Shown: piece by piece, positions 24,592-33,509 of the stretch | Layout: each line of letters opens with the position of its first letter | How positions within the stretch are numbered: the stretch's first letter is position 1 | Program-made: the position numbers and the translations under genes | Notes under the pieces: generated by a model | Seen by the model: the letters and a program-made list of their open reading frames with translations, nothing else | Database searches by the model: none | Told to the model about the DNA's origin: nothing | NCBI GenBank assembly: GCA_028278625.1 | Contig: JANQDY010000189.1 | Span: 1-33,533, forward strand | DNA length: 33,533 nt | Direction: 5' to 3' | From: Thermodesulfobacteriota bacterium | GTDB taxonomy: Bacteria > Desulfobacterota > DSM-4660 > Desulfatiglandales > Desulfatiglandaceae

Positions 24592-24687
24592 TTTAAAAAT
24601 GGTATTTTAACCTACACCTAACCTGACCTTTACGATTCCTTGAAATGCTTTCATTGTGGATTATAGATGAGCTACAAAGGAGATCGC

Positions 24688-25608
24688 ATGCAACGTCCCT
24701 CAACTGGCTTTCAAACCATCGACATCACCAACGAAACACTCTTGAAATCACCCATTTCCTATCAAGTGGCCCATTCCCTAAGTGGCAGGCTTCGCATTAG
24801 AATTCCTTCCCTTACCCATTCAAAAGATCTGTCGCTTTGTGAGAAGCAGAGACTCGCCTCCCTCAGAGGAGTACGAAAAGTCTCATCAAATCATCATTGC
24901 GGCAGTTTCACGATTCACTACGATCCGAAAATCACGAAAGAGAAAGTTATTCTTGAAGACCTCGCATGTACCCGCGTCTCTGATCTGATGGACATAGGAA
25001 ACCGGACAATCACCCGAAAGAAAGGTATTTCCGGAAAAACCCGCTCCCGCCTTCGCTGGGCCGTCGCCACGGTGATTCTGACGGTCATATTTTCAGACAC
25101 TCTTTTTCCTTTGAGAATCCTTCTCTATGTCATGATTGTGTTCATCTCCATTCCCATTTATCAACGGGCCTACGAGACTGCTTTCAAAAACCGTCGTTTT
25201 GACCTTGATCTGCTCAACGCTTTTGCCATGACCCTCGGGTTGCTGGCGGATAACCTTGTGGTGACCGCCGTCATGGCCCTGCTCATATACCTGGGGGACT
25301 ATATCAATGAACGCATCGCCTCGGGCTCCAGCAAAACCCTCTGCATGCTGATGGGAGAGAACGAATCGGATGAAGCGGCCAACAATCCCAATAACCGGCA
25401 TCTCAGACTGGTTATTGGATTGGGCACACTGACGCTCGGGACCATCATGCTGCCGCTGCCAGGTCCCGGACTCGTTATCATCCCCATCGGTCTCGGCATG
25501 CTGGCAAAAGAGCGTGAATGGGCAAAACGGCTGAATGACTGGTTTAATGAAAAGCTCAACAAGACGCTACCGCAGGCAGAAGTTTCTCCCGCGGGAGCAA
25601 AATCATGA
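24688..25608 (+). CDS. HMA2 domain + P-type-ATPase N-terminal membrane half + PGPGW domain fusion
   Basis: A 306-residue membrane protein. Residues about 24-100 are an HMA2-like domain (HSLSGRLRIRIP, then HHCGSFTIHYDP). Residues about 115-220 match the first membrane segments of the P-type ATPase encoded at 28857: SIPIYQRAYETAFKNRRFDL and LLNAFAMTLGLLADNL, then LLIYLGDYINERIASGSSKT. The resemblance stops where the actuator domain would begin; there is no TGES, DKTG or GDGIND motif. In its place a PGPGW domain follows (LPLPGPGLVIIPIGLGMLAK, about residues 253-272, then REWAKRLNDW). The ATG at 24688 has AAAGGAG 5 bases upstream. No frame disruption is visible, so it looks like a made protein and not debris. 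Confidence 0.8.
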   Translation: MQRPSTGFQTIDITNETLLKSPISYQVAHSLSGRLRIRIPSLTHSKDLSLCEKQRLASLRGVRKVSSNHHCGSFTIHYDPKITKEKVILEDLACTRVSDLMDIGNRTITRKKGISGKTRSRLRWAVATVILTVIFSDTLFPLRILLYVMIVFISIPIYQRAYETAFKNRRFDLDLLNAFAMTLGLLADNLVVTAVMALLIYLGDYINERIASGSSKTLCMLMGENESDEAANNPNNRHLRLVIGLGTLTLGTIMLPLPGPGLVIIPIGLGMLAKEREWAKRLNDWFNEKLNKTLPQAEVSPAGAKS

Positions 25609-25680
25609 GGGTCAACACGGATATTTAGAAATCAGCCTGCAACACTTCCTTAATCAGCGTCTTTGTGGAACGGGACAGAT

Positions 25681-26796
25681 ATGGAAAAGATGATGAAACC
25701 CAACATATACTGGCTGACCGTATTCATTCCCATATCGATCCTCATCAATTACGTACCGGCGCTGAAAAATGACATCGCCCTTTTCGTCTGTTCCTGCCTG
25801 GCCATGGTGGTCTTGTCCAGCCTCATCAGTACCGCCACGGAACATCTGGCAGCCAGTATCGGGGCCAAAATCGGCGGTCTGCTGAATGCGTCTTTCAGCA
25901 ACCTGCCCGAAATCATTTTCGGGACCGTGGCCCTGTACCATGGCCTGGGTGATCTGGTGAAAGCCGCCATGACCGGCGCCATCATCGGCAACCTTCTGTT
26001 CGTTTTGGGACATGCCATGCTGGCCGGCGGGCTCAAAAACGGCGTTCAACGCTTTTCCGTATCCAGGGTCAGCGATTTTTCCACGGGTCTCATTATTGCG
26101 TCCATGGCGCTCTTCATTCCCACGGTATATCAGGAGGTGGCAATGGAGGCGGCAGACGGCTTTACTCACGATGAGACAATGGCCATCAGCCTTTTGATCG
26201 CCATCATGCTGCTGTTGAGCTATGTGGGGAGCCTCATCTACACGCTTTTTAGCAAGGAAAAAGACGAGGAGGAGGCATCAGACAGGGAAGAGGCTCAAAT
26301 CGGTAAACCGTGGAGCAAGAAGAAGGCCGGTATCGTCTTAGGCATATCCAGTTTCCTGATTGCCGTGATTTCAGATTACGTGGCCGGATCCATCAACGTC
26401 GTCGAAAAGGTTTTCGGCCTGACGCATCTCTTCATGGGCGTCGTTGTCATCGCCATTATCGGCAATGTGGCCGCCCAAACCACAGCCGTTCGCATGGCCA
26501 TGAAGAACAAAATGAATCTCTGTATCGAGGTGGCCGTCAACGCCAGTTCTCAGGTGGCCCTGCTGGTGGTGCCGCTCCTTGTTTTTGCGTCCTACATTTT
26601 CGGTCATCCCATCAATCTCCATTTCGGTTTCCATGAAATCGTCGCAGTGGCCGGTGCGGTGATACTGACAACCCAGATCTGTCTTGACGGAAAATCCAAC
26701 TGGCTCAATGGAATGCAGATGCTGGTCCTTTACACCATTATCGCGGTATTGTTCTTCTTCGCCCCTGAGATGGGTGCTGCGCAATCGTTCAAATGA
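25681..26796 (+). CDS. Ca2+/H+ antiporter-like cation exchanger (CaCA superfamily)
   Basis: A 371-residue inner-membrane protein with about ten or eleven hydrophobic helices. The two alpha-repeat signatures of CaCA exchangers are visible: NLPEIIFGTVALYHG with AAMTGAIIGNLLFVLGHAML in the first half, and IIGNVAAQTTAVRMAMKNKM with VAVNASSQVALLVVP in the second. An acidic linker (EKDEEEASDREE) separates the halves, as in CAX/ChaA. In the second repeat the common GNAAEH reads GNVAAQ, so one usual acidic residue is missing and the ion may differ. A TTG 18 bases upstream is an alternative start. The last 4 bases overlap the ClC gene. Confidence 0.85.
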   Translation: MEKMMKPNIYWLTVFIPISILINYVPALKNDIALFVCSCLAMVVLSSLISTATEHLAASIGAKIGGLLNASFSNLPEIIFGTVALYHGLGDLVKAAMTGAIIGNLLFVLGHAMLAGGLKNGVQRFSVSRVSDFSTGLIIASMALFIPTVYQEVAMEAADGFTHDETMAISLLIAIMLLLSYVGSLIYTLFSKEKDEEEASDREEAQIGKPWSKKKAGIVLGISSFLIAVISDYVAGSINVVEKVFGLTHLFMGVVVIAIIGNVAAQTTAVRMAMKNKMNLCIEVAVNASSQVALLVVPLLVFASYIFGHPINLHFGFHEIVAVAGAVILTTQICLDGKSNWLNGMQMLVLYTIIAVLFFFAPEMGAAQSFK

Positions 26797-28535
26797 CTTC
26801 TGACACAAGACAAAGGAATATGCCGGAACCGTTTTGGATTCCCCGCAACCTCCCTTTCATGTGTATCCTATCATTTTCGGTGGGCATCATTGCCGGCATC
26901 GGCGCCTGGGCCTTTCGAATGCTCATCGGCCTTTTCCATAACATCCTTTTTTTGGGCAAGTTCCAGTTTTACTATGACGCCAATTTGCATACGCCGCAAA
27001 ACCCCTGGGGACCCGGGGTAATTCTTGTTCCAGTCGTCGGTGCACTCATGGTCGCGTGGCTGGTAAGGACCTTCGCGCCGGAAGCCAAAGGGCACGGTGT
27101 TCCGGAGGTCATGGACGCCGTTCACTATAGTGACGCCAAGATCAGGCCCGTTGTTGGGCTGATCAAGGCCGTGGCATCGGCCGTTTGCATCGGCAGCGGC
27201 GGTTCCGTGGGGCGGGAAGGACCCATTATTCAGATCGGTGCGTCCTTCGGATCGACCCTTGGCCAGATCCTGAAACTCCCCGCCCGGCAGACCGTGACCC
27301 TGATCGCAGCTGGTGCCGGCGGCGGCATTGCCGCCACTTTTAACGCACCCCTGGGAGGGCTCGCCTTCGGCATTGAATTACTTCTGATATCCGTCAACGC
27401 CGCTAATATTCTGCCCGTCACCATTGCCACGGTAACCGCCACCTATATCGGGAGGGCGCTTCTTGGCGTTGAACCGTCATTCTATTTCGCACCGATCACC
27501 CATCTGGATCTGCATTTGTCATCCGGCTTCAGTCTGCTTCTGTTTGTACCTTTCGGCATCATCATGGGTTTTGTCTCGGTCCTTTTTGTCAGGGGCATCT
27601 ACTGGGCCGAGGACCGCTTTGACGCCATGCCGGGAAATAGCTATTCCCGACACCTCTCCGCCATGTGCGTTGTCGGCATAATGCTCTGGCTGGTCATGCG
27701 CCACACGGGATATTACTACATTCAGGGGGTCGGATACGCCACCATCATGGACATCTTACGAACGACACTTTTAAATCCCTGGCTGCTGCTCCTTCTCTTC
27801 TTTTTAAAGTTCATCGCCACCTGCCTCACACTCGGCTCCGGAGGCTCTGGCGGCGTTTTCTCCCCTTCCCTTTTCATGGGCGCCACCTTTGGGGCTTTCA
27901 CGGGCGTCATTTTTGCGAACCTCCTGCCCGGCGTGGGTGCTCACCCGGTAGCCTTTGCCATCGCGGGCATGGCGGCAGGCGTTGGAGCTTCTACCGGCGC
28001 CATCATCACCGGTACCGTCATGATACTTGAGATGACCCAGGATGCCAACGTGGTCCTCCCCATCATGATTACATCAGGCTTCGCCTACGGCATCCGCAAA
28101 TGGCTTTCACCCGGCAGTATCTACACGCTGAAGCTGCTTCGAAGGGGGCACATTGTCCCTGAAGGCCTGCAGGCGGCCATGTCCGAATCACTGAAGGTAA
28201 AAGATATCATGACAACAACCTTTGAGTGCATTGGCAGGGAAAAGCTGACCGACCCATTGCCCAAAACCGCCGTCGTCACTTCCGGCGATTCCATTTTGGG
28301 CTATGTACCCTCAAGTACATCGGGAAACCCGGCCGAAGCGATGGTCCGGGCAGAGCCCATTTTGGCGGCTGCACAAGACCCGGCAAATGACCTCATTCGG
28401 AAAATGGGATCAGCAGAATCCGCATTTGCCCTGGTGACCGCAGACGGGAAGCTGTCGGGAATTCAAGACGTTCTGGGTGTTGTTACCGAACGGGAAATGG
28501 CAGCCTGCCTAATGAAAGAAACAACGCTGAAGTAG
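26793..28535 (+). CDS. ClC-family chloride channel/antiporter with a degenerate CBS tail
   Basis: A 580-residue protein. The ClC filter segments are recognisable: KGHGVPEVMD (the GSGIP region, with His where Ser is usual), GSGGSVGREGPIIQIG (including the gating Glu of GREGP), and GSGGSGGVFSPSLFMGA. About ten to eleven further membrane helices fill residues 15-440. The last 120 residues begin VKDIMTTTFECI and look like a CBS pair that has partly decayed. The start overlaps the exchanger stop (ATGA), so the two are translationally coupled; a chloride path could balance charge for cation movement. A 320-base space follows before the ATPase gene. Confidence 0.92.
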   Translation: MTSDTRQRNMPEPFWIPRNLPFMCILSFSVGIIAGIGAWAFRMLIGLFHNILFLGKFQFYYDANLHTPQNPWGPGVILVPVVGALMVAWLVRTFAPEAKGHGVPEVMDAVHYSDAKIRPVVGLIKAVASAVCIGSGGSVGREGPIIQIGASFGSTLGQILKLPARQTVTLIAAGAGGGIAATFNAPLGGLAFGIELLLISVNAANILPVTIATVTATYIGRALLGVEPSFYFAPITHLDLHLSSGFSLLLFVPFGIIMGFVSVLFVRGIYWAEDRFDAMPGNSYSRHLSAMCVVGIMLWLVMRHTGYYYIQGVGYATIMDILRTTLLNPWLLLLLFFLKFIATCLTLGSGGSGGVFSPSLFMGATFGAFTGVIFANLLPGVGAHPVAFAIAGMAAGVGASTGAIITGTVMILEMTQDANVVLPIMITSGFAYGIRKWLSPGSIYTLKLLRRGHIVPEGLQAAMSESLKVKDIMTTTFECIGREKLTDPLPKTAVVTSGDSILGYVPSSTSGNPAEAMVRAEPILAAAQDPANDLIRKMGSAESAFALVTADGKLSGIQDVLGVVTEREMAACLMKETTLK

Positions 28536-28856
28536 CGGCAACGCATCGCTCCGAAACGCCAGGTAACCACCGCGCACAATCAGAATGCCTCAGAATTATG
28601 GTCGTCGCTTAACCGGTGTCAAGTTAGCATTCCATTAGAGTTCTGTAAGACCCCCTTTTGTTCTTGACCTGATGACACCACGACCTATGATTTTATTTTG
28701 TAGTTATCAAATGTACTTTTTTTTTGACAATGCCGATGCCATATGTTTTAAAGTTCACTGGTTCATATGGTCCCGTACTTTCGATCTGAGCTTTGGCCGG
28801 TATTGTATTTGATAAAGCCTTTAGCGTTGGTTGGTTTTCCATAGAGGAGGTTTTTT
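28536..28856 (+). other. Intergenic leader upstream of the P-type ATPase
   Basis: This 321-base stretch holds no gene I can support. It contains a 7-base dyad GGTGTCA (28615-28621) / TGACACC (28673-28679) with a 51-base interval, a poly-T tract, and a possible promoter described separately. I looked for a -24/-12 (sigma-54) element because an RpoN-box protein is encoded nearby; only a weak GG-N10-GC match (28615-28628) is present. Confidence 0.5.
28724..28752 (+). promoter_or_regulatory. Putative sigma-70 promoter of the P-type ATPase
   Basis: TTGACA (28724-28729), a 17-base spacer, then TTTAAA (28747-28752). The -35 element is perfect, the -10 matches at four positions. It lies about 105 bases before the ATPase start. 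Confidence 0.5.
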
Positions 28857-31244
28857 ATGTTGGCAGACGATTCCGGTCCGGAAATGCCCAGTCCCAATCC
28901 CATGCGGGTTGATCTTGAGATCATTGGCCATAAACCCGCTCCGGGTAAGGATCAATCTGATCCGTTGCACCGAAAACTATCATATCGTATCAAGCATGCC
29001 ATCCGCGGCCGGTTTCGTATCATCATCCCCATCTTGTCCCATCGAAAAGATCTCATCCGCTCTCTGGAATACCACGTGAAAGCCATTGACGCCGTCAAAA
29101 AGGTTGCGTCCAATTACCGTTGCGGGAGCCTGACGATCCAATACGATTTCCCGAGAATCAGGAAAGATAAGATTCTCAAAACCATTGAAGGGCTCACCAT
29201 CGGAGAGCTGAATCAGACGTTACCGGAAGTGCCACCGAAGGTTCGCGAGGAACACGAGGTATCACTTTCCTATCTCAGAAAAGCCGCCGGCGCCGTGGGA
29301 TTGAGTCTGATGCTGACGGGTGTTCCCGTCCTGGCACTTGCCATTGTATACCCTTTCCTGTTCTACATCTGCCTTCCCATCTACAAAAGAGCTTACCGCT
29401 GCATCCGTTACGAACGGCGATTGAATGTGGATTTTCTGGATGCCATGGCACTCAGCGTCGGCATGATGACCGGTGACGTGATCAACGCTTCCCTCATGGT
29501 CATGCTCATTCATCTGGGCGACTACATTCGGGATCTCACCGCCGCCAGCTCCCAGCGAACCATCCGTAAACTTTTGGATTTCCAGGATAACCATGCCTGG
29601 GTATTGCGCGAAGGCGTTGAAATCCAGATAAAAGTGAAAGATATTGTTGAAGGCGACGTGGTGGTTCTCAATACCGGTGATCTTATTCCCGTGGACGGTG
29701 AAGTGATCGAGGGAGAACTGATTGTCGATCAGCAGGTTCTGACCGGTGAGTCCATGCCCATTCACAAAGAAGCCGGCGATGATGTTTTCGCTTCGACGGT
29801 GATCCGGGACGGAAGCGCCTATGCCAAAGCCACCCGAATCGGTGAACGCACCAAGGTGGCCCAGGTGGTGCGTCTTGTGGAAGAAGCCCCCCTTTATGAA
29901 ACCAGGATTCAGAACCATGCGGAAAAATTCGCCGACCGACTGGTGGCACCGTCGCTTTTGACAACGGGCCTTCTGTTCGCGGGCACCATGAACCTGGCCC
30001 AGCTGGCAGCCCTTCTGACAGTCGATTTCGGGACCGGCGTCAGGGTTTCCGCACCCACCGCGGTACTCTCTTCCATGATTACTTCCGCTTCAAACGGCAT
30101 ACTCATAAAGGGCGGCAGCTATCTGGAGAAGCTGTGCCACACGGACACCATCATATTCGACAAAACCGGCACCCTTACCACGGGTGTCATTCACGTGGAA
30201 GATCTCATTTCCTTTAACGGCTACGGGAATTCGGAACTCCTCTCTTACGCCGCCACCGCCGAATTGCAGATGACCCACCCCATTGCCGAAGCAGTGGTCC
30301 GCCATGCCCAGGTTCATGAAATTCCGCTGAAGGAGCGAAAAGGCGTTAAATATGTCGTGGGCCGTGGTGTGTGGGCGGATATTCAAGGCAAGGAAACCCT
30401 TGTGGGAAGCCTTCGGCTCATGCGGGAAAACAACGTTGAGGTTGACCCAAGCGTGCTTGAAACCAGGGATAAGATGGTAGACTCGGGAAAGGCGTGCCTG
30501 TACGTTGCCATCGACAATGAATTCGGCGGCCTGATCTCTTTCAGAGACCAGATTCGCCAGGAATCCAAACAGATGATCGATGAACTTCACCGCGTGGGCG
30601 TCAAGCAAGTGGTCATGCTCACCGGAGATGTAAAGCAGGTGGCGGAACCTGTTGCCGAATCCTTGGGCATTGACAGATGCGTGGCGGAAATGCTGCCGGA
30701 GCAGAAAGCGGAAGTGGTGCGGGAACTCAAGGAGCAGGGTCACACGGTCGCATTTGTGGGAGATGGCATTAACGATTCCGTGGCACTCTCCTATGCTGAC
30801 ATCGGTTTCTCGGTCAAAGGCGGTGCGGATATCGCCAAGGAGACGGCCGGTGTTATTCTGCTGAACGAAAACCTCATGAACATTCCAAAAGCCTTTGAGA
30901 TCAGCCGGAACACCATCCGTCTCATTAAGGAAAGCTACTGGATCGTGGGAAGTTTCAATGTGGTTGCCTATGCTCTGGCCGCCATCGGCTTGGTATCTCC
31001 GGTCATCACCACATTAATCAGCAACGGTTCGGCGGTGGTTGCCTGTGTCAACGGCATGAAACCGATGATTAAAATGAAACTGAGCGGCTCACGAAGAAAA
31101 CCTGAAGGGCCTGTCATAAAACACAAGATCGGAAAACTGCAACTTTCAGGCGGCCCGCGCGTGGCGACTGAGGCGGTCCGGGCCCCACTGACGCCCGAAC
31201 AGGATCAAAATGCATATCAGGCCGAAACAAGCACAATCCATTAG
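28857..31244 (+). CDS. P1B-like cation-transporting P-type ATPase with HMA2 domain and no CPC motif
   Basis: A 795-residue ATPase. Residues about 40-120 are an HMA2 domain (HAIRGRFRIIIP, YRCGSLTIQYD). The catalytic set is complete: TGES at 296-299, phosphorylated Asp435 in FDKTGTLTTG, the P1B-specific HP in MTHPIAEAVV, MLTGD, and VGDGINDS around 634-641. In the metal-selecting membrane helix the usual CPC is replaced by GTG (FGTGVRVSAPTA, residues 391-402), and near the end ISNGSAVVACVNGMKP stands where LHN..S is usual. The ion is therefore not predictable as Cu, Zn or Cd. A GAGGAGG ribosome site precedes the ATG. The C-terminal 50 residues are basic and hydrophilic. It is followed 26 bases later by a PacL-like gene. 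Confidence 0.9.
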   Translation: MLADDSGPEMPSPNPMRVDLEIIGHKPAPGKDQSDPLHRKLSYRIKHAIRGRFRIIIPILSHRKDLIRSLEYHVKAIDAVKKVASNYRCGSLTIQYDFPRIRKDKILKTIEGLTIGELNQTLPEVPPKVREEHEVSLSYLRKAAGAVGLSLMLTGVPVLALAIVYPFLFYICLPIYKRAYRCIRYERRLNVDFLDAMALSVGMMTGDVINASLMVMLIHLGDYIRDLTAASSQRTIRKLLDFQDNHAWVLREGVEIQIKVKDIVEGDVVVLNTGDLIPVDGEVIEGELIVDQQVLTGESMPIHKEAGDDVFASTVIRDGSAYAKATRIGERTKVAQVVRLVEEAPLYETRIQNHAEKFADRLVAPSLLTTGLLFAGTMNLAQLAALLTVDFGTGVRVSAPTAVLSSMITSASNGILIKGGSYLEKLCHTDTIIFDKTGTLTTGVIHVEDLISFNGYGNSELLSYAATAELQMTHPIAEAVVRHAQVHEIPLKERKGVKYVVGRGVWADIQGKETLVGSLRLMRENNVEVDPSVLETRDKMVDSGKACLYVAIDNEFGGLISFRDQIRQESKQMIDELHRVGVKQVVMLTGDVKQVAEPVAESLGIDRCVAEMLPEQKAEVVRELKEQGHTVAFVGDGINDSVALSYADIGFSVKGGADIAKETAGVILLNENLMNIPKAFEISRNTIRLIKESYWIVGSFNVVAYALAAIGLVSPVITTLISNGSAVVACVNGMKPMIKMKLSGSRRKPEGPVIKHKIGKLQLSGGPRVATEAVRAPLTPEQDQNAYQAETSTIH

Positions 31245-31270: not shown

Positions 31271-31516
31271 ATGGGGGCTTTTTTCTGGGGGATGCTGGGT
31301 GGCGTTATTGTACTGATGGCCAAAAGAAGCAAACGGATGTCCTCGGTGGCGGAATCGGCCGGCAAGGTGGATCAGGGAATCATCGGAAGAATGAAATTTT
31401 GTGCCTCTGAACTCGTGGAAGACTTTCGAGACCTGGTAGCCGAAAGCAAAATGGAACTTGAGGCTGAAAAAGCGGCACAGGCCGAGGTGGACTTGCATAA
31501 ACAAGATCAGCAATGA
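31271..31516 (+). CDS. PacL-like small membrane protein A
   Basis: An 81-residue protein: a glycine-containing membrane helix (residues 2-17, FFWGMLGGVIVLMA), a short basic turn (KRSKR), then a hydrophilic Glu/Ala-rich helix with ELVEDFRDLVAESKMELEAE and the tail AEVDLHKQDQQ. This order, N-terminal helix, Glu/Ala-rich region and a D-L-H tail, is like the mycobacterial PacL proteins that cluster and stabilise metal-efflux P-ATPases, although the His-rich end is reduced. GGAGG lies 8 bases before the ATG. It directly follows the ATPase gene. Homology to PacL is not proven; DUF5132 or another small-protein family is possible. Confidence 0.65.
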   Translation: MGAFFWGMLGGVIVLMAKRSKRMSSVAESAGKVDQGIIGRMKFCASELVEDFRDLVAESKMELEAEKAAQAEVDLHKQDQQ

Positions 31517-31651: not shown

Positions 31652-31882
31652 ATGGAAGAGATTGCATTAGGAGTACTGGGCGGCATTGTCGTGGTTGCGG
31701 TGGTCACCAAAACGAAAATTCTTCGTGGGGCGGCCAAGAAAGTCATTAAAACGGGTTATGCCCTTTCAGGCGCCGTCGCTTCAGGCGGCGCATCGGCCCT
31801 CGATTCGGCAAAAGATCTCGTGGCCGAGAGCAAAGCGGAATATGAAGCCGCACAGGTTGCAAAGGCCGAAGCCGCTGCCTAA
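31652..31882 (+). CDS. PacL-like small membrane protein B
   Basis: A 76-residue relative of the proteins at 31271 and 32693: a membrane helix at residues 4-20 (IALGVLGGIVVVAVV), a basic stretch, a Gly/Ala/Ser-rich turn, and SAKDLVAESKAEYEAAQVAK near the end. It shares D-L-x-A-E-S-K-x-E with the other two but has no histidine and no metal-binding tail, so it may only scaffold. AAGGAGG lies 7 bases before the ATG. It is separated by 135 bases from gene A and followed by a structured intergenic region. Confidence 0.65.
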   Translation: MEEIALGVLGGIVVVAVVTKTKILRGAAKKVIKTGYALSGAVASGGASALDSAKDLVAESKAEYEAAQVAKAEAAA

Positions 31883-31897
31883 TTCAGACTGATAATA

Positions 31898-31978
31898 TCC
31901 CGATATTACGGGACTTTTGCCACCCGAAAACAGGCTTGACGCCCTGACGCTAGCGTTCCGTCTTCCTGCTTTCGGGTG
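31898..31978 (+). other. Two adjacent hairpins (possible terminator/attenuator)
   Basis: A first stem TCCCG (31898-31902) / CGGGA (31909-31913) is followed by CTTTT. A second, longer stem pairs CACCCGAAAACAGG (31921-31934) with CCTGCTTTCGGGTG (31965-31978), 14 positions with one mismatch, around a 30-base loop that itself contains GACGC/GCGTT. It lies between the PacL-like gene B and the HMA2-RpoN gene. The first may end transcription; the second may be an attenuator, a processing site or a non-coding RNA. No promoter for the next gene was clear. Confidence 0.5.
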
Positions 31979-32105: not shown

Positions 32106-32642
32106 ATGGAAATAGCACATCAGCTTCCGGGAAGGATGCGAATCAGGATGCCCGCACTTGGGTCTGAAACCTATTGCCGACATTTAAAGGAATCGTTGTC
32201 AGAACATGACGGCATTACCGATTTTCGAATCAATACCGCCTGCAACAACGTGGTTGTATCATATGACCCGGTGCGCCTTGAAACCGAAGATCTTCTGGCC
32301 TTGCTCGAAAAACCCCATCAGTCGGAACCAAAGGCTCCGGCTTCAACCGATGCCAAGAAGGCTCCTGCCAAAGCAACCCAAAAAGCACCGACACGGAAAA
32401 AGGCCGCGGCAAAACCTCAGAAAGGGCCCGCTAAGGACCCGGCGTATTTCAAACCCGCCGTAACACCCGATGTTCAGGAGAGGATTCGCCAGATTATCGA
32501 AAATGAAGATCCCCAAAAGCCCATCAGCGATGGCAGGATCTCGGAAATGCTGAAAGCGGAAAAAATGGGCATCGCTCGGCGAACGGTTGCAAAGTATCGA
32601 GAGATACTTGGAATACCGCCTTCAAACCGGCGCAAGGAATAA
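32106..32642 (+). CDS. HMA2 domain fused to a sigma-54 (RpoN) C-terminal DNA-binding domain
   Basis: A 178-residue soluble protein in three parts. Residues 1-65 are an HMA2-like domain (HQLPGRMRIRMP, then ACNNVVVSYDP). Residues about 75-115 are a Lys/Ala/Pro-rich linker. Residues 119-178 match the C-terminal DNA-binding domain of sigma-54: VQERIRQIIENEDPQKPISD, then GRISEMLKAE, and the complete RpoN box ARRTVAKYRE (157-166) followed by LGIPPSNRRK, nearly the E. coli RpoN ending. The sigma-54 activator-interaction and core-binding regions are absent. It could bind -24 promoter elements without RNA polymerase and so block or modulate sigma-54 promoters. GGGGG precedes the ATG. This combination is not one I know. 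Confidence 0.9.
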   Translation: MEIAHQLPGRMRIRMPALGSETYCRHLKESLSEHDGITDFRINTACNNVVVSYDPVRLETEDLLALLEKPHQSEPKAPASTDAKKAPAKATQKAPTRKKAAAKPQKGPAKDPAYFKPAVTPDVQERIRQIIENEDPQKPISDGRISEMLKAEKMGIARRTVAKYREILGIPPSNRRKE

Positions 32643-32692: not shown

Positions 32693-32923
32693 ATGGAATT
32701 GATTTTTGCAGGTATTATTGGAGGATTGATTGTCCTCATCGGAATGAAATTTGCGCCAAAAAAACCGATCCTCAAATTGCTTATGAGGATGTTTCTGGTG
32801 ATCAGGGATTATCTGCTGTCGGTTTTGGGCGAGGCCTTTGAAAAACTCAAGGACCTCTTTGCCGAAAGCAAGGCCGAGTACGAAAGGGAGAAAGAGGCGG
32901 AAAGAGAAGTGCATATGGATTAA
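32693..32923 (+). CDS. PacL-like small membrane protein C
   Basis: A 76-residue relative of the proteins at 31271 and 31652: a membrane helix (residues 2-19, IFAGIIGGLIVLIGM), a basic APKKP turn, a second amphipathic stretch, and KLKDLFAESKAEYEREKEAE with the tail EREVHMD. The tail has one His and one terminal Asp, compared with DLHKQDQQ in protein A. AAGGAG lies about 10 bases before the ATG. It lies 50 bases after the HMA2-RpoN gene and 100 bases before the last HMA2 gene. Function inferred only from its relatives. Confidence 0.65.
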   Translation: MELIFAGIIGGLIVLIGMKFAPKKPILKLLMRMFLVIRDYLLSVLGEAFEKLKDLFAESKAEYEREKEAEREVHMD

Positions 32924-33023: not shown

Positions 33024-33509
33024 ATGAAGAACATAAAAGTCAGGCTGAAGGTTGTCCATTCCATTCCCGGCAGGGCAAGGATTAAGATTGAATCGCAACT
33101 CGACCCAAAGGTCTTCTTTTTTGTGCTGGAAGCCGGTCTGAAAGAAGTGCAGGCCATCAAAAAGGCTGAACTCAACCCCCATTCGAAATCCATCACGGTT
33201 TTTTTCAGAAAAAATCTAGATGTGGCCGTCATTCTAACGGAATTGGAACAGGTGCTTTCGGAGGTCACGAATGATCCGGATTTTTTCAAACGGATCGAAG
33301 ACATCAGAGACATATTGGCCTATGGGAACAAAGACCACATGGAAGTGTCGGTTCGAAACAGCATCCTGACGGTATCCCACAATTTGGACAGGGCCGTTAA
33401 ACACATGACCGGAAACACCATGGATCTGAGAACCGCTGTCCCGATCAGCTTCGCCCTCTATTATCCGAATGTCAACCCTTTTACGATCAGCTTTTCCCTC
33501 TTGCCCTAA
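33024..33509 (+). CDS. HMA2-domain protein with hydrophobic C-terminal segment
   Basis: A 161-residue protein. Residues 4-75 are an HMA2-like domain starting RLKVVHSIPGRARIKIES; the Cys seen in the other HMA2 copies at the SNxxCGS position is replaced by a Pro-His (LNPHSKSITVFF). A linker follows, and the last 30 residues (MDLRTAVPISFALYYPN onward) are hydrophobic and could anchor the protein. TTG at 33006 is an alternative start; the ATG at 33024 has GAGG 4 bases upstream. It ends the cassette near the window edge, and no typical ATPase motor is present. What follows it is beyond the window. Confidence 0.7.
   Translation: MKNIKVRLKVVHSIPGRARIKIESQLDPKVFFFVLEAGLKEVQAIKKAELNPHSKSITVFFRKNLDVAVILTELEQVLSEVTNDPDFFKRIEDIRDILAYGNKDHMEVSVRNSILTVSHNLDRAVKHMTGNTMDLRTAVPISFALYYPNVNPFTISFSLLP

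Follow-up and report, generated by a model that had tools for sequence, protein, structure and literature searches.

Organization of the gene cluster

The window, meaning the whole stretch of 33,533 nucleotides analysed here, comes from a Thermodesulfobacteriota bacterium and carries towards its end a set of genes read on the (+) strand. The ORF at 32106..32642, with an ATG start, codes for a 178-residue protein in which an HMA_2 domain is joined by a linker to an RpoN-box domain, as delineated from Pfam and homologs. It is preceded by the gene of a P-type ATPase with an N-terminal HMA_2 domain (28857..31244; Pfam, NCBIfam and motifs) and by ORFs for small proteins 1 (31271..31516, with a weak DUF5132 match below the Pfam cut-off) and 2 (31652..31882), and is followed by the ORF for small protein 3 (32693..32923); the segment scan gives each of these three polypeptides one hydrophobic segment. 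A second HMA_2 protein (33024..33509; Pfam and comparison) comes next. Its relatives in L001, the locus of Desulfobacteraceae bacterium BH30 (genome G001), and in L148, the locus of genome G045, run longer at the end. The early and divergent end of the window's copy lies close to where the contig stops and may be genuine or due to misassembly. Upstream of the ATPase are found an HMA_2-PGPGW gene (24667-25608; ORF and Pfam), a Na/Ca exchanger gene (25663-26796) and the gene of what we take, from sequence likeness, to be a ClC-like channel (26793-28535), the last two being present also in L001. Downstream of small protein 2 and ahead of the fusion gene lies a long predicted hairpin (31921-31978), behind which comes a T-rich stretch. 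The terminator scan did not call it, and the leader before the fusion gene is not unusually stable (z -0.54).

The ATPase has the motifs DKTGT, TGES, THP and GDGIND. In its fourth membrane segment, FGT at position 391 replaces the expected CPC, as in the L001 ortholog, and a motif search finds CxC and [S/A/T/C]PC nowhere in the window's ATPase. Despite the missing CPC the protein scores as P1B-type (TIGR01525, 489.6 for a cut-off of 346) and an HP motif is present. Small proteins 1 to 3 are paralogs, each pairwise score being reached by none of 500 shuffles, with a common AESK-type tail. They have no Pfam match over the cut-off, and DUF1490 and DUF6110 are not matched.

An HMA_2 domain joined to the RpoN-box domain of sigma-54

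Pfam assigns residues 1-74 of the fusion to HMA_2 (PF19991, 37.8 bits for a cut-off of 30, E 2.3e-9) and residues 123-177 to Sigma54_DBD (69.3 bits for a cut-off of 22.8, E 4.2e-19). Combined with the predicted model, this delimits an HMA_2 domain of residues 1-72 (32106..32321) with the motif HxLPGRxRxR and no CxxC. It is followed by a linker of residues 73-113 (32322..32444), predicted to be disordered from its pLDDT and basic according to the charge found across the family, and by an RpoN-box (-24) domain of residues 114-178 (32445..32639), recognised from Sigma54_DBD positions 105-159 of 160 and from structure 2o8k. The alignment places the RpoN box ARRTVAKYRE at residues 157-166 (32574..32603). 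In the PDB, the closest sequence match comes from the RpoN domain in 2o8k and 2o9l (residues 122-177, E 4.4e-13), the former entitled as an RpoN domain bound to the -24 promoter element. The model, predicted from 44 sequences with a mean pLDDT of 73.5, has two confident domains separated by a disordered linker (pLDDT below 50 at residues 72-111). RpoN structures come at the top of the Foldseek search with this model as the sole eight matches at E <= 0.001, 2o8k aligning to its C-terminal half with a TM of 0.74 of the target; HMA domains match the N-terminal half more weakly, with E from 2.2e-3 (8rnz 0.70, 1osd 0.75). Pfam, the PDB and the model agree with the first-pass annotation in reading here an HMA_2 N-terminus and an RpoN box, and confirm ORF 32106-32642 as a real HMA_2/RpoN-box fusion joined through a basic linker.

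The same annotation spoke of a complete sigma-54 DNA-binding domain. This holds for the RpoN-box domain, judged complete relative to the 63-residue NMR structure, but not for Sigma54_DBD as a whole: the fusion covers 55 of the 160 model positions (105-159), which correspond to the RpoN-box domain alone, and the match begins only at position 105, leaving out the -12-reading HTH. The proposed loss of the sigma-54 parts binding RNA polymerase and activators is borne out, the Pfam scan matching neither the core-binding domain (PF04963) nor region I, and the score against the NCBIfam RpoN model (TIGR02395) being 69 bits for a cut-off of 277.

The HMA_2 domain was initially described as the same as that of the ATPase. 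The two are of one Pfam family, but they have 26% identity over their aligned part; a common HxxxGRxR core is found in the fusion and in the other HMA_2 copies. The motif CxxC occurs in none of the 44 aligned fusions, which leaves metal sensing unsupported, nor in any of the 12 HMA_2 segments compared, and the match to the metal-binding HMA family PF00403 is below its cut-off (23.2 bits for 24.8). Classical metal sensing by HMA_2 was rejected on the count of CxxC and the PF00403 score. The initial label of a membrane/metal-sensing domain gains no support either from the segment scan, which finds no hydrophobic segment in the fusion protein, or from the neighbouring ATPase without CPC. We infer that a docking role is more likely for this HMA_2 domain than metal binding.

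Family of fusions, conservation and origin

Sought in other genomes, the same fusion is found in at least 43 relatives among the best 120 matches listed in a protein search, with 92-100% query coverage and 47-56% identity. Below them the score falls from 147 to 68 bits and RpoN pieces start. Precomputed Pfam assignments give both domains to 33 of these relatives and Sigma54_DBD alone to 10. A profile search that scored the 8000 candidates sharing most words, with the best 120 listed, adds at least five members (P0122-P0126), after which the score drops from 198 to 106 bits. The 49 members, the window's included, comprise 44 aligned ones; P0122-P0126 are outside alignment A1 and the tree. Named sources are Deltaproteobacteria, Desulfobacteraceae or Desulfobacterales, and most of the proteins bear the annotation hypothetical, while some are named for sigma-54.

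All 44 aligned fusions carry ARRTVAKYRE unchanged, as do 125 of 135 RpoN sequences in the alignment and 47 of the 49 members, P0122 having one change and P0126 no box. Outside the recognition helix, Q124 and S146 are invariant across the aligned fusions and variable in RpoN. The linker is 14-55 residues long. Its net charge ranges from -4 to +18 with a median of +13, and 39 of the 44 linkers are positively charged. In a midpoint-rooted tree built with 132 of the 135 RpoN segments, the other three being identical duplicates, the 44 fusion HTHs form one clade (support 0.976) with none of the 132 distinct RpoN inside, and this single clade points to a family that arose once.

The fastest-changing part of the fusion is the linker, both domains being slower. 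Non-synonymous differences per site for HMA_2, linker and HTH are 0.28, 0.49 and 0.18 against L001, and 0.28, 0.44 and 0.16 against L148; synonymous differences per site against the same two loci are 0.57-0.89, near saturation. Judging from these rates, both domains are kept under selection.

Gene neighbourhood and distribution

The order ATPase, two small membrane proteins, fusion, small membrane protein and HMA_2 protein is common to the window and to two other assemblies, those of L001 and L148; in G045 the ATPase is split in parts over two contigs. The window contig stops past the HMA_2 protein. In L001 and L148 there follow two T2SSE/PilT-like ATPases and then HMA_2-DUF454 proteins, Pfam having been run on L001 and on part of the L148 neighbours. 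The tandem ATPases adjoining the HMA_2 cluster are at L001:11746-13932 (Pfam) and L148:3051-5363 (by sequence). HMA_2 is joined to PGPGW or DUF454 membrane parts at 24667-25608, L001:13947-14687 and L148:5392-6550, so that the domain recurs on several proteins of one cluster.

The fusion is present in 2 of 85 genomes of the order; these two are also the ones with an ATPase ortholog, sought at E up to 1e-120. A fusion search among 395 genomes drawn from the phylum, evidently without G045, matched 285 of them, nearly all via RpoN. Among the matches listed, best first, only that of G001 covers the N-terminal half and the fusion is seen in G001 alone; the ATPase ortholog is also found in G001 alone among the same 395 genomes. 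As scoring took at most two candidates per genome, one genome in 395 does not prove absence elsewhere.

Four of 15 candidate proteins inspected are fusions and the other 11 have RpoN sequence upstream of the box. One of these 11, P0117, has a thioredoxin-like start and is encoded on a 1.3-kb contig. A scan of genome contigs for the best 80 of 590 relatives, a depth that does not bound the family, has L001 as its sole fusion and 78 loci with RpoN sequence upstream of the box; L055 lies at its contig edge and starts at the box region. All five viral loci carry RpoN-type sequence.

Sigma-54 in the host genomes and promoter search

A full-length rpoN is found elsewhere in both G001 and G045, read as 507 and 481 amino acids. 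Sigma-54-type sites of the form TGGCACGNNNNTTGCW number 6 and 2 in the two host genomes, for 0 and 0 in the backward control, and those of the form TGGCAYRNNNNTTGCW number 27 in G001 (control 1) and 19 in G045 (control 2), none of the latter form being on the cluster-bearing contigs. A promoter scan, using weights of our own, and the site search find no clear -24/-12 sigma-54 promoter between cluster genes, so that any sigma-54 target must lie elsewhere. The top-scoring site on a cluster contig (L148:3964) is inside a gene, and the best sigma-54-like site of the window (11673 (+), TGGCATGAAACTTGCT) falls within a gene of LysR type encoded on the opposite strand.

A word search reveals before the ATPase a TTGACA with GATGCCAT, which is TGGCAT on the other strand (28724..28742 (+)). 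TTGACA and this half-site are close together before the ATPase in the three loci, the half-site flanking TTGACA on the opposite side in the window compared with L001 and G045. Shuffling gives a P of 0.007 for the half-site, with 12 tests run and no correction applied, and a P of 0.077 when the word is shortened to TGGCA; the half-site is at most a hint of autoregulation.

Proposed function

A free-standing -24-reading domain encoded beside an HMA_2 P-type ATPase, as the first-pass annotation had it, is supported by the sequence. The fusion keeps the promoter-reading piece of sigma-54 while the parts that drive transcription are gone, and is therefore likely to sit on sigma-54 promoters and block them. 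We favour the hypothesis, with a probability of about 0.5, that the soluble fusion blocks -24 elements by occupying them in the absence of RNA polymerase, its HMA_2 domain likely docking to the pump. The analogy is with engineered RpoN*, reported to lower transcription and to be weakened by mutation Y48A in the box, in the article that also cites the 60-residue C-terminal piece of Aquifex RpoN as binding the -24 element with a Kd of about 109 nM (PMC5626770). A natural protein with the domain and helix of RpoN* is predicted to act as RpoN* does. The RpoN-box domain of the fusion would bind -24 DNA like its Aquifex homolog, a prediction that we consider highly probable, and the basic linker would contribute non-specific DNA affinity. 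Once bound, the fusion would block the sigma-54 holoenzyme, or a sigma-70 promoter overlapping a -24-like site, net repression being the probable outcome if -24 binding occurs. By the same analogy, the repression or tuning of sigma-54 promoters put forward at the outset is a fair inference. If HMA_2 docks to the ATPase and to the small membrane proteins, this would in turn alter the amount of free fusion available to DNA. This is the weakest step, and the chance that docking controls the fusion seems to us somewhat short of even. Docking to the pump is read from the gene neighbourhood, and the 26% identity between the HMA_2 copies of fusion and ATPase speaks against it. More tentative still is the complete scheme of a first natural class of free-standing -24 readers, one-component regulators in which a sigma-54 recognition domain docked via HMA_2 would block promoters according to the state of the platform.

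Several other explanations were weighed. The fusion could be a DNA tether, with HMA_2 holding a membrane pump platform while the HTH and basic linker hold the chromosome, thereby positioning the platform with no gene regulation. The HMA_2 domains on several cluster proteins, the basic character of the linker and the two T2SSE/PilT-like ATPases downstream in L001 and, by sequence, in L148 would fit such a role. However, a plain tether needs no specific site and the sequence-reading helix is exact in 44 of 44 fusions; moreover no positioning gene is recognised, and we regard the tether as unlikely. We consider equally unlikely a local autoregulator that would bind a half-site of -24 type overlapping the sigma-70-like promoter of the ATPase in its own cluster and report the state of the pump, leaving sigma-54 promoters unaffected. 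It draws on the TTGACA and half-site pair found before the ATPase in three of three loci and on the proposal by the RpoN* authors that a gene blocked by RpoN* is closed to other sigma factors as well (PMC5626770), and is weakened by the uncorrected shuffle P and by the change of side of the half-site between the window and the other two loci.

Coexistence of the fusion with full-length rpoN in both genomes would also suit a sigma-54 helper, which marks, pre-opens or hands over -24 elements to the holoenzyme and so activates rather than represses. This is improbable: the polymerase- and activator-binding parts are all missing from the fusion, and fusion and holoenzyme cannot occupy the same footprint at once. 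Least probable is an artefact: rpoN sequence brought in by an assembly join, a doubt already raised by the first-pass annotation, or the remains of a decaying rpoN. P0126, whose box is lost at its end, and P0122, with its one box change, could be cited in its favour, as could short RpoN-only frames elsewhere. Two of the latter were dismissed as free-standing readers: that of G200 is at a contig edge, and that of G065 (L149, G065:C1) belongs to an rpoN gene that a long masked stretch interrupts. G065 has a second rpoN copy besides the interrupted one. Against an artefact stand the recurrence of the fusion in 44 aligned members that form one clade, the box exact in 47 of 49 members, the gene order common to two other assemblies, domains that change more slowly than the linker and a GC content of 0.512 for both gene and window; with this recurrence and shared gene order we rule it out.

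Comparison with known systems

Blocking of -24 elements by the fusion remains our preferred reading, and several described systems share parts of the arrangement. The cluster resembles the PacL/CtpC efflux platforms, where a P-type ATPase is found beside one-helix small proteins with Glu/Ala-rich tails; the consulted parts of these reports make no mention of a DNA-binding partner of the fusion's kind (PMC9374683, PMC13043812). It differs from them in having no DUF1490 or DUF6110 match and an ATPase without CPC. In ferrosome systems FezB has an arginine-rich motif, and the DUF4405 family of FezC is not matched by Pfam among the cluster proteins scanned. Ferrosome (fez) clusters, reported from Desulfovibrio magneticus, are similar in combining a transporter ATPase with small membrane proteins (PMC10979944, PMC12574912).

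The fusion has in common with sigma-54 (RpoN) the RpoN-box domain, at Sigma54_DBD positions 105-159, and differs from it by the lack of region I, of the core-binding domain and of the -12 HTH. A natural protein with the box present and the -12 HTH missing is described in meningococci, where sigma-N has lost the HTH and kept the RpoN box in 269 of 290 isolates (PMC6755734). According to the same source, the protein went undetected and its deletion left growth unchanged, which means that keeping an RpoN box does not prove its use. This sigma-N is a reduced rpoN with upstream regions and without HMA_2, whereas the fusion has a gene to itself and retains the box in genomes that also hold a full-length rpoN.

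The open-access literature searched reports neither an HMA_2/RpoN-box fusion nor a free -24 reader of natural origin, in keeping with the first-pass remark that no described protein of such design is known. Regulators coupling a sensing or docking domain with an HTH are a known type; as far as this literature shows, an HTH taken from sigma-54 is new. The controls described for sigma-54 promoters are activators and, within the holoenzyme, autoinhibition (PMC7057263). If our reading is true, a natural competitor for the promoter would be a third control point, and sigma-54 regulation would be connected with an ATPase cluster of Desulfobacterales that is still uncharacterised. The closest counterpart is the RpoN* 'molecular roadblock', which is made of a Met and the 60 C-terminal residues of Aquifex RpoN and offers the same free domain with the same box (PMC5626770). 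RpoN* is man-made and stands alone, whereas the fusion is natural, carries HMA_2 and a basic linker and is encoded in a pump cluster; were it to act as proposed, an engineered inhibitor would have an evolved natural counterpart.
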